In this document: positions 708-17,483 of the stretch, piece after piece
Position numbering within the stretch: the first letter of the stretch is position 1
Layout of the letters: the number at the start of each line of letters is the position of its first letter
From: a virus
DNA length: 21,670 bases
Virus record (IMG/VR): IMGVR_UViG_3300017769_000155
Location: 1-21,670 of that record
Strand: one strand, 5' to 3'
Translations under genes and position numbers: made by a program
Notes under the pieces: model-generated
What the model saw: the letters and a program-made list of their open reading frames with translations, nothing else
Database searches by the model: none
Told to the model about the DNA's origin: nothing

Positions 708-1819
708 TGGCAATACCTACACGGTTTAATTTAGGGCAAACTCCAGCGGGGCGGTTCTTAGAGCTTATACAGCCGCCAATGGGTGTAGGCGCAAGGCCAG
801 CCGCCAGAATCACAGAAACAGGTGGCATGGGTCGTATGCGCGGTGATATTCCAATGAGGCTACCGCAACAGCGTCAGCAACCTCGGATGCCTCTTGAGGC
901 GGCTATACTGTCCGGCACAGGGGCAAGACCCTCCGCTGGTTTTGTTAGTGCGCCACCACAAACGCAAACAACGCCCCCAAAAGCACCGCCAAGCCTGATG
1001 GATAGACTAACTCCGGCAGTTGGTACACCCGCATTTGCTGGGTTGTCAGAAGCCGCCGCAACTGGCCTGCAACTGTCAGGCTATCAGGACAAGCCGATTA
1101 CAACAGGGCAGGGCTTGGGTGCTATGTTCGGTGCTGGCATGAAGGCTTACACAGCGGAGAAGAAGGCTCAGGCCGCCGCAGAACTAGCCAAGCAACAGCG
1201 CGAGACTGACCTTGCTATGAAGATGATGGAAATTCGTGCAACTCAGGCGGCAACTGACAGAGAGTCGTCAAAGATAGTTACTGACAGAGAGATGAAGCGT
1301 TCTGAGCAATTTAGGACGGCCTCAAAGCCTTTTGGTGAGGCAAGGCTAAACTATGAAAGAGTTGTGGCTAACGCGACAACAAAGAACCCCACAGGTGCTA
1401 CAGACATTGCATTGATTTTTAACTTTATGAAGATGCTTGACCCGACATCCGTTGTTCGTGAATCTGAGTTTCAAGCCGCCGCTGGCGCAAGTCCATTGTT
1501 ACTACGTTTGGGTGCTGAGTATAACAAGCTGTTCAGAAAAGAAGCCGAGAAACTTCCTGAAGCAACAAGAAGGCAATTCTTTCAAGCGGCTACAGAAACC
1601 TATGTTCCTTATGTTGAGGGGCAACAAAGACTTGAGCAAGATTTCATATCAGAGGCCGAAAGTTTTAACCTTAATCCTGAAAATGTCGTTAGAACAAAAG
1701 TCCCTAGAAAGGGCATAAAGGAATATCCTTATGTTGTTTACAGCCAGAATGAGGCTGAAAACTTACCTGATGGAACTTGGGTAATGCTAAATGGTGAATT
1801 ATTACAGGTGTCAAAATGA
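707..1819 (+). CDS. Probable internal virion / DNA-ejection protein, 370 aa
   Basis: ATG 707 overlaps the previous stop and follows a purine-rich TAGGAGGG site about 8 bases upstream. Residues 1-110 are Pro/Gln/Arg-rich and look disordered. Residues about 135-210 are a highly charged Ala/Gln/Lys helix, likely coiled coil. The C-terminal half carries IFNFMKMLDPTSVVRESEFQ, a motif I recognise from internal or lysozyme-associated virion proteins of marine podophage-like genomes. The extreme C-terminus (VVYSQNEAENLPDGTWVMLN) is a small beta-rich module. No signal peptide or membrane segment is visible. It lies between two other Ala-rich virion candidates and shares a 4-base overlap (ATGA) with the next gene. 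A role in forming the ejection channel or core is an inference; virion placement is likely. Confidence 0.72.
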   Translation: MAIPTRFNLGQTPAGRFLELIQPPMGVGARPAARITETGGMGRMRGDIPMRLPQQRQQPRMPLEAAILSGTGARPSAGFVSAPPQTQTTPPKAPPSLMDRLTPAVGTPAFAGLSEAAATGLQLSGYQDKPITTGQGLGAMFGAGMKAYTAEKKAQAAAELAKQQRETDLAMKMMEIRATQAATDRESSKIVTDREMKRSEQFRTASKPFGEARLNYERVVANATTKNPTGATDIALIFNFMKMLDPTSVVRESEFQAAAGASPLLLRLGAEYNKLFRKEAEKLPEATRRQFFQAATETYVPYVEGQQRLEQDFISEAESFNLNPENVVRTKVPRKGIKEYPYVVYSQNEAENLPDGTWVMLNGELLQVSK

Positions 1820-3432
1820 GCAATGGCGTTACGTTAAAAAGAGCTGACGGCTCTGTATATGACCCAAGCAAGTCATCTGGAATGATGTCCTTACAAGCTC
1901 CAGAAATGTCAACGACAGACCTAGCTATCAACCTTGCCAGAGCAATCGGGCAGGGTCTTACCTTTGGCTTTGCTGATGAGGCAGAAGGGTTTGCCCGTAG
2001 TGTTCTTGGTGACGAAACCTACAAGCAAGCGAGGGATTCTGCACGGGCTGGTCTTGAGCAGTTCCGCGAGGAGATGCCCATTACAGCATACGGCTCAGAA
2101 ATAGCCGCTTCTATACCATCCGCAGTTGTTGGCGGGGCTGGTTTAACCGCCGCCCGTCTTGCTGGTAAGATACCTCAAGCCGCCGCTATGGGTGCGGCAT
2201 ACGGAGCTGGAACTGCTAAGGAAGTTTCTGATATCCCCATTTCTGCTGGGCTTGGTGCGGCTACAGGTGCTGGCTTGCAGAAACTTGCGCCATCAATTAC
2301 AGCGGGTGCAAAGGAGCTGATTAGGCGCGGTGTGCCAGTAACTATCGGGCAGGCCATTGGCGGTGGAGCAAAGCGGTTAGAAGAGGCCGCGACTTCTGTG
2401 CCATTCTTAGGTGATGCGATTAAGAGCGCCCAACGCAGAGCTATGGAGCGTTTTGGTGCGGCGGCGTTCAATGAGGCGCTTGAGCCTATTGGCAAGAAGA
2501 TACCGAGCAACCTTACAGGCCGCGAGGCTTATGCGGCGACTGAGGCACAGATATCCAAAGCCTATGATGATGTGATTAAAGATATTGACCTGCCTGCCGG
2601 ACAAGCCTTTGTGCAGAATGTTTCTGGAGTTGTTGCAAAGTTTGCTGATGACCTACCGAAGAAAGAGGCTGACCAGCTAACAAAAACAATCAATAGAGAA
2701 ATAACCAGACGAATCAAGAACGGCAGGCTTTCCAAGCAAGACTTCAAGGATGCTCAGTCTGCTATCAGGGGTGAGGCTTACACATTCAGCACCAGCACGG
2801 ACGCTTATCAGAAACAGCTTGGCGATGCCTTAAATGATGTTGCTGGCGAATTGTTTGATGTTCTGGCGAAGGAAGCCCCAGACTTGGCAACCCAGCTAAA
2901 GAAGGTGGACACCGCATATAGCCGCTTTGTGCCTCTGCAAAAGGCTACAGCAAAGGCTGATGAGGGCATCTTTACTCCGGCTAAGTTGCGTCAGGAAATA
3001 AGGTCAGGTGGGCGCAGAACTCCAGCGGCTATGGCTAAGGGCGAACTGCAAATGCAAGAACTTGCAGATATAGGTCAGGATGTATTGGGCGCTAAGTTGC
3101 CGGAAACTGGTTCTGCTGTCAGGGGTATGGTTGGCTTAGGAGCGCTTGGCGGCATGGGTGCTGGAGCTGGTATGCCGCTGGAGGCTATGGCTCTGGGTGG
3201 GGCGGCTGGGGGTCTGTACACCCGTCTGCCTCAATATCTTTTGAGGTCAGGTTATCCATACGCCGCAGGTTTAGCGAGAACCCCCGCCGCCGCAGGTTTA
3301 TTATCGCAGGCACTGCCCTCACCGATATCACCAGCCGAGGCAGGCACAGTCCCCGTTCAGGAGATATACACTAACCCACAGGGGCTAAAATATGCTATAA
3401 CAGAGCAGGGCGCGACCCTGCTAGGAGAATAA
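1816..3432 (+). CDS. Probable internal virion / DNA-ejection protein, 538 aa
   Basis: Starts at ATG 1816, overlapping the previous stop (ATGA). Residues 34-45 hold ARAIGQGLTFGFADEAEGF, a motif frequent in large internal proteins of marine phages. Two Gly/Ala-rich hydrophobic blocks (about 95-160 and 435-470) could be membrane-interacting helices, as expected for a protein that helps DNA cross the cell envelope. Between them lies a charged helical region (about 185-400). The last 40 residues are Pro-rich and end in a short beta-like tail. No enzymatic motif is visible. Its place after the 370-aa protein and before the tail fibre N-terminal protein fits a virion core or ejection role. Alternative: a scaffold-like or tail-interior protein. 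Membership of the virion set is fairly sure, precise role is not. Confidence 0.72.
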   Translation: MSNGVTLKRADGSVYDPSKSSGMMSLQAPEMSTTDLAINLARAIGQGLTFGFADEAEGFARSVLGDETYKQARDSARAGLEQFREEMPITAYGSEIAASIPSAVVGGAGLTAARLAGKIPQAAAMGAAYGAGTAKEVSDIPISAGLGAATGAGLQKLAPSITAGAKELIRRGVPVTIGQAIGGGAKRLEEAATSVPFLGDAIKSAQRRAMERFGAAAFNEALEPIGKKIPSNLTGREAYAATEAQISKAYDDVIKDIDLPAGQAFVQNVSGVVAKFADDLPKKEADQLTKTINREITRRIKNGRLSKQDFKDAQSAIRGEAYTFSTSTDAYQKQLGDALNDVAGELFDVLAKEAPDLATQLKKVDTAYSRFVPLQKATAKADEGIFTPAKLRQEIRSGGRRTPAAMAKGELQMQELADIGQDVLGAKLPETGSAVRGMVGLGALGGMGAGAGMPLEAMALGGAAGGLYTRLPQYLLRSGYPYAAGLARTPAAAGLLSQALPSPISPAEAGTVPVQEIYTNPQGLKYAITEQGATLLGE

Positions 3433-3433
3433 A

Positions 3434-4072
3434 ATGGCAAAGACAAAAATATCCGAATACGATAGCACCGCTAGCAATAATACGGATTTGGACAACATAA
3501 ACCTGCAAGAAAATGTCATGGTGCCAAGTGACCTGAACAACTTTTGTCGGGAAATCATGGCGCATCTAGCAGACATGAATGACGGCACATCTGCCATTCA
3601 GGACACCTTTACCCTGTCCGACCCGACAGACGATACCAAGCAGGTTCGCTTTGACGCTGAGGACATTACCACTGGCACAACTCGCGTACTTACAGCCCCT
3701 GACGCTGATGTGACCATTGCTGGGCTTGAGAAGGCTCAGGAGTTCACAAAGACGCAGAACTTTAACGCCACTACCCTAGTGGACGGTGCGAGCATCTCAT
3801 GGGACGCTAGCGCCAATCAGGTGACATCTGTTACATTGGCAGGCAACCGCACTATGGCAGCTCCTACCAATCTGGTGGACGGCGGTATGTACTTGCTGAT
3901 GGTAATACAGGATGGCACTGGTAGCCGCACACTGTCATTCAATGCGGTGTTTAAGTTTACAGGCGGCACAGCCCCTACACTGACCACCACTGCCTCGGCT
4001 AAGGACATTCTGATATTCCACAGCGATGGCACAAATCTGTATGAAGTCGGACGCTCACTGAACGTATCATAA
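3434..4072 (+). CDS. Tail-fibre/appendage N-terminal adaptor-like protein, 212 aa
   Basis: ATG 3434 follows GGAG of the previous gene's end (ctaggagaataaaATG), one base after its stop. The N-terminus MAKTKISEYDSTASNNTDLD and the following PSDLNNFCREIMAHLADMND match the opening of many phage tail-appendage proteins that begin with a virion-attachment helix. The rest is Thr/Asp/Gly-rich beta structure (residues about 60-212), with an ANQVTSVTLAGNRTM...DGGMYLLMVIQDGTGSRTL segment typical of beta-sandwich fibre modules. It probably links the 783-aa fibre encoded next to the tail, or is a short fibre by itself. Start, family resemblance and position agree; receptor specificity cannot be read. Confidence 0.8.
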   Translation: MAKTKISEYDSTASNNTDLDNINLQENVMVPSDLNNFCREIMAHLADMNDGTSAIQDTFTLSDPTDDTKQVRFDAEDITTGTTRVLTAPDADVTIAGLEKAQEFTKTQNFNATTLVDGASISWDASANQVTSVTLAGNRTMAAPTNLVDGGMYLLMVIQDGTGSRTLSFNAVFKFTGGTAPTLTTTASAKDILIFHSDGTNLYEVGRSLNVS

Positions 4073-12153: not shown

Positions 12154-12274
12154 CTTCAACCTTCTTCATTAGCACTGCGTGTTGGCTGTGAGGGTAGGAC
12201 AGGTAGGAGACAATCTCCCACCCATTCTCCTCGCGTTCTTTGATGTGACCATGCACAACATATCTAAGGGTCAT
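12128..12274 (-). CDS. Unknown 48-aa protein
   Basis: ATG 12274 overlaps the stop of the DnaA-like gene (ATGA), and its stop lies inside DUF3310. The sequence (RYVVHGHIKEREENGWEIVS followed by SQHAVLMKKVE) has the W.IV...... S.Y/H..VLM.K ending typical of small phage proteins in such operons. No ribosome site of its own is visible, so coupling would be needed. It fills what would otherwise be a gap in a fully packed operon, which supports it. Function unknown. Confidence 0.6.
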   Translation of the reverse strand: MTLRYVVHGHIKEREENGWEIVSYLSYPHSQHAVLMKKVEDERPSEPS

Positions 12275-12621
12275 GCGCTCAGACACCGTTCAATTTCCTT
12301 TATAATTCGGGTGGTTTTTGACCGCCCACGGCCTCTTTTATCGAGCTTCTTGACGGCGTAGTAGACTGAGGTATGGTCACGCCCAAATGCCCTGCCCACT
12401 TCTGGATAGCTACAACCCAGCAGTTTGACTGACAGATACATAGCAATGTGTCGCTCATTTGCGTTGAGCCTTCTCTTAGACAGCAATTCCAAGACTGGCA
12501 CTCCTGTGACTTCGCTGGTTGCTTGGACAACGTGTTCAATGCGCTGGTCATAGTGCATCGAACGGGATGGTCTCTCCGTTTTCCCTAAGAACTTTAAGAT
12601 AATTTTCTCTAGCACAGACAT
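12271..12621 (-). CDS. DnaA domain-IV-like DNA-binding protein, 116 aa
   Basis: Residues about 28-95 match the C-terminal DNA-binding domain of DnaA: GVPVLELLSKRRLNANERHI followed by AMYLSVKLL and the signature GRDHTSVYYAVKKL (80-93). In DnaA this domain binds 9-base DnaA boxes. Here the AAA+ ATPase domain is absent and the whole protein is little more than domain IV, so it can bind but not melt DNA. It may bring the phage origin to the host replisome, compete with host DnaA, or repress a promoter. Start: 12621 has GGAG ten bases upstream; ATG 12558, overlapping the previous stop, would give 95 aa and keep the domain. Domain call is strong. Confidence 0.88.
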   Translation of the reverse strand: MSVLEKIILKFLGKTERPSRSMHYDQRIEHVVQATSEVTGVPVLELLSKRRLNANERHIAMYLSVKLLGCSYPEVGRAFGRDHTSVYYAVKKLDKRGRGRSKTTRIIKEIERCLSA

Positions 12622-16312: not shown

Positions 16313-16650
16313 GTATGAGGTTTAAGCTAAAATATAGGCAGGTGGACAGGGATTTTCCGCACAAATATGAGGAGCTTATGGGTCGGGCAAAGGAGTGCAT
16401 GGACAAAGGCGCTTACAACGAGTTTGTGTTTTACCAGCTATGGCGGGACATGGGCGACTTGGTAAAATATGTCAGTGATGTGCAGGCAGAAGTTGCGGAT
16501 GATTACAGGCATTATCAGGAAAACTTGGCACTACAAGGGGAGCGAATGGACGAGCTTTTCAAGCAGTATCAAGAGGCTGTTGTGGACAAGCGGAACTATC
16601 GGAAGGCTCTGCAAATATTAAGCGAAAAGGTTGAGGGGGAAAGAAAATGA
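16309..16650 (+). CDS. Unknown coiled-coil protein, 113 aa
   Basis: ATG 16309 overlaps the previous stop; a second ATG two codons on is possible. Mostly one long charged helix with aromatic residues (YEELMGRAKECMDKGAYNEF; YRHYQENLALQGERMDELFK; YRKALQILSEKVEGERK), likely coiled coil. No membrane segment. It directly precedes the replication initiator and overlaps it by four bases (ATGA), so a helper role in replication is possible. No family recognised. Confidence 0.6.
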   Translation: MSMRFKLKYRQVDRDFPHKYEELMGRAKECMDKGAYNEFVFYQLWRDMGDLVKYVSDVQAEVADDYRHYQENLALQGERMDELFKQYQEAVVDKRNYRKALQILSEKVEGERK

Positions 16651-17483
16651 GCATCAAAGCAGTATCATGGGCGCTGGAGTACGAACTCAGCGACCCTATC
16701 GCAAAGCTGGTTCTTATTGGCATTGCGGACAAGTATAATGATGAGCGCGGTTTTGCTTGGCCTAGCGTTAAGTGGCTTGCAACTGCGGCTAGTTGCAGTG
16801 AGAGAACAGTCAGGAGAAAGCTGACGTTTTTGCAAGAGCGCGGCCTGATAGATATTGACCGCAGATTTAACGACACAAGCTGTTACAGAATTATCAGCAA
16901 TGGGTACTGTAATGACACGGGTGACACTGTGACAGGGGGTGACACAGTTCTGTCAGGGGGTACTGACACAGCTGTGACAGGGGGTACTGACACTAGGTGT
17001 CCGCCTAACTATAATAACAATATTAACAATAATACCAATAAAGGGAGTAAAAAGCAGAAACTTGCTGATTGGATGCCTTCTGAGAAGGACAAGGAATATG
17101 CTGAGAGCCTTGAGCTGGACTGGGAGGAAGTGCTGACAGATATCCGGCTCTGGGATGAAAAGAACGGAAATAAGGCCGCTTACGCTTCATGCAAGGCTTT
17201 CTGGCAGGGTTGGTGCAGAAAAGAGGATAAGCGCACTCAGCGGCGCTCAAATCGCCAGCAATCGGTATCTAAGCCGAAGGGGAAGGGTGAGTTGTCCGAT
17301 AGGCAGAAGCAGTATGCGGAGACAGTGGCTGAGAAGATGTGGAACGTCTACAAGGCGGAGGGGTTCTATTACAAGATGATACTGCCGGACATTATCGCAT
17401 TTATGCAGACTGACCAGACGGACGCAGACTGGGCGGCGCTGGGCAATGGCATGGATAATCCGGTAGAGAGGGGCTGGATGTGA
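16647..17483 (+). CDS. Replication initiator, lambda O/DnaT-like, 278 aa
   Basis: Residues 15-85 are a winged helix-turn-helix of the HTH_36 type (GFAWPSVKWLATAASCSERT, VRRKLTFLQERGLID). Residues 90-116 are a Gly/Thr/Asp linker encoded by the iteron-like repeats, 119-131 an Asn-rich run encoded by the AT-rich stretch. Residues 141-192 (WMPSEKDKEYAESLELDWEE, then FWQGWCRKE) match the DnaT-like ssDNA-binding domain that loads host helicase. Residues 192-220 are basic and disordered, and the last 50 are helical. The order DNA-binding wing, origin-bearing linker, helicase-loader contact is that of lambda O. It closes the rightward operon and a terminator follows 3 bases later. No polymerase or helicase gene is visible, so host replication proteins are probably used. 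Confidence 0.84.
   Translation: MSIKAVSWALEYELSDPIAKLVLIGIADKYNDERGFAWPSVKWLATAASCSERTVRRKLTFLQERGLIDIDRRFNDTSCYRIISNGYCNDTGDTVTGGDTVLSGGTDTAVTGGTDTRCPPNYNNNINNNTNKGSKKQKLADWMPSEKDKEYAESLELDWEEVLTDIRLWDEKNGNKAAYASCKAFWQGWCRKEDKRTQRRSNRQQSVSKPKGKGELSDRQKQYAETVAEKMWNVYKAEGFYYKMILPDIIAFMQTDQTDADWAALGNGMDNPVERGWM
16902..17002. repeat. Iteron-like array inside the initiator gene (candidate origin)
   Basis: Five related units start GGGT or GGGGGT and continue (ACT)GACAC or an inverted form: at about 16902, 16919, 16935, 16956 and 16980. The T that ends each GGGT is spaced 17, 18, 21 and 24 bases from the next. CAGGGGGT is exact three times (16933, 16954, 16978). Units 3 and 4 are near-palindromes around TGACACAG...CTGT(G)ACA, with CACAGCTGTG perfect at 16967-16976. 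This encodes only a Gly/Thr/Asp linker, so the repetition is not forced by the protein fold. Confidence 0.72.
17003..17056. other. AT-rich stretch beside the iterons (candidate unwinding element)
   Basis: From 17008 to 17040 there are only a handful of G or C bases; the run is built from ATAAC/ATTAAC words and codes for an Asn-rich linker. Directly 3' of the iterons, it is where a lambda-type origin would melt. Confidence 0.58.

Follow-up and report, generated by a model that had tools for sequence, protein, structure and literature searches.

A probable replication origin of the oriLambda kind inside the initiator gene of an uncultured phage

The replication origin of phage lambda, oriLambda, lies within gene O, and the Stx phages P27 and 933W share this arrangement; dyad iterons spaced about 17-24 bp apart are found in the linker of the initiator, a placement and spacing seen also for the repeats of the DNA described here (PMC7466680, PMC3349717). 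The N-terminal domain of lambda O binds DNA with one dimer per iteron, while the C-terminal domain binds the P helicase loader (PMC6022878). Two iterons and the AT-rich tract are enough for unwinding (PMC7466680). The lactococcal P335 replisome organisers ORF13 of TP901-1 and Rep2009 of Tuc2009 bind direct repeats in their own genes, and these repeats constitute the origin (PMC8965321). In the viral DNA analysed here, a stretch of 21,670 nucleotides referred to as the window, a repeat array followed by an AT-rich tract lies inside an initiator gene, and it is very probably the replication origin of the phage, of the same kind as oriLambda. The arrangement is thus already known, and the phage appears to be a well-supported new example of it, because its relatives swap the head of the protein and the start site as one unit.

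The gene is found at 16647-17483 on the plus strand and encodes a protein of 278 amino acids that matches Pfam HTH_36 (1.8e-9) and a PHROG replication initiation protein profile (3.9e-19). An AlphaFold2 model displays a confident winged helix in residues 1-85 (16647-16901, plus strand), a linker in residues 86-133 with pLDDT below 50, predicted to be disordered, and a helical C-terminal part (17058-17480, plus strand). The sequence-only reading had confined the repeats to the linker, and the model agrees with this. The N-terminal domain is predicted from Pfam, the model, fold comparison and the swap pairs described below to be the origin-binding part. Its modelled fold resembles the DNA-binding domains of LexA, CAP, and RbkR (VIA Z about 9), and a search of its sequence against the PDB gave no match. 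When it comes to the C-terminal domain, a fold search using its medium-confidence model gave weak matches only. Several PHROG families of O-like proteins match the initiator; phrog_345 and phrog_678 give 1.4e-10 and 4.8e-9 for the window protein and 5e-17 and 2e-35 for lambda O. Pfam Phage_rep_O (PF04492), which recognises lambda O at 5.7e-36, does not match the window protein at E-values up to 0.1, and hhalign found no direct similarity between the initiator profile and lambda O. The initiator most likely acts like lambda O even though it falls outside Phage_rep_O and is O-like at the level of PHROG profiles only. The earlier label of an O/DnaT-like protein can be kept in its first half to that extent, while the second half finds no support, the C-terminal domain having no Pfam family and no match to a solved fold. 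No helicase loader is recognisable near the gene, and a search of bacterial genomes with the N-terminal domain, made to find the host, found none.

Relatives were collected from viral contigs, and among them one family of C-terminal domains is found behind three unrelated types of N-terminal domain and iteron, designated A (the type of the window), B, and C. Viral contigs also encode proteins of 114-122 amino acids (L212-L225) with a related winged helix and without the C-terminal domain; these may be initiators or regulators of which just the DNA-binding part is left.

The DNA encoding the linker contains four to five repeat units (16902-17001) built as TGACA-centre-TGTCA/TGACA-GGGGG. All of the elements first read from the letters are present, namely five units starting with GGGT or GGGGGT and containing TGACAC or TGACAG, a spacing of 17-24 bases, a palindrome and an AT-rich run directly after them. 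The GGGT/GGGGGT words end at 16905, 16922, 16940, 16961, and 16985, giving spacings of 17, 18, 21, and 24. All units are given on the plus strand. The outermost, GGGTACTGTAATGACACGGG (16902-16921), is degenerate. Iteron 1 (16922-16939) is TGACA-CTG-TGACA-GGGGG with a short centre of 3 bp, iteron 2 (16940-16960) is the exact dyad TGACA-CAGTTC-TGTCA-GGGGG, and iteron 3 (16964-16984), TGACA-CAGCTG-TGACA-GGGGG, contains the palindrome CACAGCTGTG at 16967-16976. Iteron 4 (16988-17002) reads T-GACA-CTAGG-TGTC-C, with the exact dyad GACAC-TAG-GTGTC. The AT-rich tract (17006-17042, plus strand), where 32 of 37 bases (86%) are A or T, is the predicted unwinding element. The unit is better written as GACA-N3/N5/N6-TGTC, which is a hyphenated palindrome, with GGGGG after it. 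The centres of the four main iterons measure 3, 6, 6, and 5 bp, a variation that is odd for a rigid dimer. In the window the dyad is exact in two units (16941 and 16989) and the right arm is degenerate in two, while the units of the relatives are mostly exact. Counted in the window linker alone, inverted arms of 6 bp are not unusually many, as 364 of 1000 shuffles reach the count, and the dyad claim thus rests on the relatives.

A promoter-like sequence, CTGACA-17-TATAAT, with 11 of 12 consensus bases overlaps iteron 4 and the AT-rich tract (16987-17015, plus strand). The repeats might therefore be part of an internal promoter, or an operator for an initiator that regulates its own gene, since a winged-helix protein could act as a repressor, and not be an origin at all. 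The near-consensus elements are also present in the relatives L005 and L007, but by eye they are lost in L009 and L045. The sites moreover lie some 250 bp into the coding sequence. A second copy of the array was seen neither in the window nor, for its counterpart, in the complete genome of the related C72C1, and the sites are absent from the other promoters of both. The iterons and the AT-rich tract do fit known in-gene origins, and a purely regulatory role is considered very unlikely.

The repeats exceed what is expected by chance. With up to three mismatches allowed, there are two copies of the 22-mer TGACACAGCTGTGACAGGGGGT in the window and none in 100 shuffles of it. The direct-repeat score of the gene is 15, while synonymous-codon shuffles have a mean of 2.4 and came up to this score in 2 of 5000 cases; lambda O, used as a positive control with the same shuffling, gave 0 of 5000. 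Identical codons were then counted at residues conserved between two genes, in the repeats and elsewhere. Between the window and C72C1 the codons are identical at 21/22 such residues in the repeats, 42/72 in the N-terminal domain, and 67/93 in the C-terminal domain (elsewhere in total 109/165, p=0.002). The corresponding numbers for the window and L007 are 21/22, 31/63, and 21/52 (elsewhere 52/115, p=5e-6). Codon identity is thus 95% in the repeats of these two pairs compared to 40-72% elsewhere. The more distant L009 displays no such excess (9/18 versus 49/110), so the proposed conservation of repeat bases at synonymous sites holds for C72C1 and L007, but not for L009.

If only the peptide were repeated, the DNA repeats would be confined to one reading frame. 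This is what is seen in the window, where all strong repeats share one frame, the off-frame repeat score is 0, and the 18- and 24-bp periods encode GGDT/GGTDT peptide repeats; the frame argument consequently rests on the relatives. In L009 copies of the motif GGGGGGACACAGCTATGTC encode the peptide GDTAMS or GTQLCP, depending on their frame. In L009, L091, L204, L145, the actinophages RedFox (L029) and DatBoi (L032), and Pseudomonas phage CF183a (L031), off-frame repeats score higher than in any of 500 synonymous shuffles, and the same is true of several genes of type B and of every type-C gene other than L027. The iterons of lambda occupy three frames, and are in this respect like those of the relatives. 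Subclades of type A have altered both arms of the unit in concert, and in that of L122 GGTGAA is found with its TTCA partner in all copies. That the repeats are a feature of the protein, or arose recently by tandem duplication within a flexible linker, and have no function as DNA is hence scarcely credible; the motif encodes different peptides in different frames in L009, type C, RedFox, and DatBoi, and the synonymous sites of the repeat codons are more conserved than those elsewhere.

In the linkers of the initiator-like genes L029, L031, and L032, from Arthrobacter, Pseudomonas, and Gordonia phages, related GGGGTGNCA/GGGGTGCAA units are spread over several frames. In-gene origins of the winged-helix class therefore look widespread.

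The iteron type follows the type of N-terminal domain. GACA-N3-7-TGTC is found in 29 of 29 type-A genes with this C-terminal domain, CCGN4CGG with a period of 15 bp is found in 34 type-B genes, the two that lack the motif being incomplete at the 5' side, and GTGTCN5GACA is found in 20 of 21 type-C genes. Only four genes have one cross hit between the iteron types. On a tree of the C-terminal domain core, made by a quick method from 150 columns, parsimony gives 12 changes of N-type, and well-supported branches require at least five for type B. Relatives thus keep their repeats along with the N-terminal domain and change repeat type when it is exchanged; loss of the repeats from an otherwise retained protein, which would have spoken against the sequence-only reading, is not the pattern.

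Aligned pairs display the extent of the exchanged segment. L063 (type C) and L070 (type B) share 99.6% identity along 2543 bp of upstream DNA and 98.3% in the C-terminal domain, and do not align in between. Positions 1-2543 and 3213-3619 of L063 correspond to 1480-4021 and 5001-5407 of L070, while the N-terminal domain, the iterons and the segment just upstream differ. Judged from the alignment, this difference is a recent natural swap. Between C72C1 (type A) and L014 (type B) the identity is 96% as far as the start codon and 92% in the C-terminal domain. In the five aligned swap pairs homology restarts at the beginning of the C-terminal domain (17058), past the iterons and the AT-rich tract. 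A restart inside the tract (17013), as given by BLAST, was discarded, as a stricter local alignment gives 17058 and the boundary in the tract is taken to reflect chance similarity of A-rich sequence. Since homology resumes only at the C-terminal domain, the N-terminal domain, the iterons and the AT-rich tract behave as a single unit, a specificity cassette that can be swapped. In L006 of type B the half-sites have changed from CCGT..ACGG to CCGG..CCGG alongside changes in the recognition helix, but as a link between the two this single case is anecdotal.

It can tentatively be proposed, though the odds are somewhat against it, that the origin-binding domain, the iterons and the AT-rich tract make up a mobile cassette of at least three types that has been exchanged repeatedly while the helicase-side domain and the surrounding genome stayed fixed, maybe as a result of selected diversification. 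If this is true, diversification might avoid cross-reacting origins during coinfection, or provide resistance to origin decoys as for TP901-1 and Tuc2009. Natural swaps such as the L063/L070 pair reveal the segment that moves as specificity module, and the census of the three N-terminal types supplies matched recognition helices and half-sites for studies of initiator and origin co-evolution.

The four lines of evidence, that is shuffles, codon identity, motifs in several frames and joint exchange of N-terminal domain and repeats, point to selection on the DNA. A stand-alone gene for a DnaA domain IV protein is found at 12271-12621 on the minus strand of the window and at 26306-26656 on the plus strand of C72C1 (L028). 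The protein matches Bac_DnaA_C (1e-16), has no AAA+ domain, and may target the host origin. The array can hardly be a DnaA-type origin bound by this protein or by host DnaA, for although most of these phages have kept the gene regardless of initiator type, the repeats follow the N-type of the initiator while the DnaA-like gene occurs with all three, and the canonical box TTATCCACA is absent from the window and C72C1, as is TTWTNCACA from the window. A search of Rfam gave nothing. The cumulative GC skew had been expected to switch near 16.9-17.0 kb; it turns instead at about 14.6 kb in the window and 24.4 kb in C72C1, at the junction of divergent genes and about 2-3.5 kb off the array. It tracks gene direction in both, and is uninformative, speaking neither for nor against an origin.

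The proposal of a lambda-type origin within the gene is accordingly the reading that synonymous conservation, the frames of the relatives and the joint exchange favour. The anatomy, the conservation at the DNA level, the multi-frame motifs of the relatives and the common exchange of N-terminal domain, iterons and AT-rich tract are directly seen. In the mechanism envisaged for such an origin, the winged helix would bind the four main iterons, where it would probably form dimers on the TGACA/TGTCA dyads. Strain from this nucleoprotein complex would open the neighbouring AT-rich tract of 37 bp. The C-terminal domain would then recruit the host helicase or primosome. The linker would serve as an unstructured tether with residues largely dictated by the DNA that encodes it. 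In that case sequence alone would have sufficed to locate an origin in this group of uncultured phages, which are presumably marine, given the kind of metagenomes in which the relatives are found.

Among the closest known counterparts is the replication initiation protein of C72C1 (OQ984150.1, 20557-21384), which is 75% identical over its full length and is encoded by a gene with the same iterons in a similar gene order. The C72C1 genome is complete (34,944 bp) and its record carries no origin description; its AT-rich tract differs from that of the window, and its C-terminal domain is nearer to that of the type-B L014. TP901-1 and Tuc2009 share the in-gene repeats with the window, while the hosts differ, and they are likened to it by description and not by sequence. 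Compared to oriLambda, the iterons of the window are unrelated in sequence, being units with GGGGG at the flank and dyad centres of varying length, and the initiator has no recognised P-like loader as neighbour. The order of the elements is the same: oriLambda has an AT-rich tract of 38 bp beyond its iterons, and the 37-bp tract of the window likewise follows the array.
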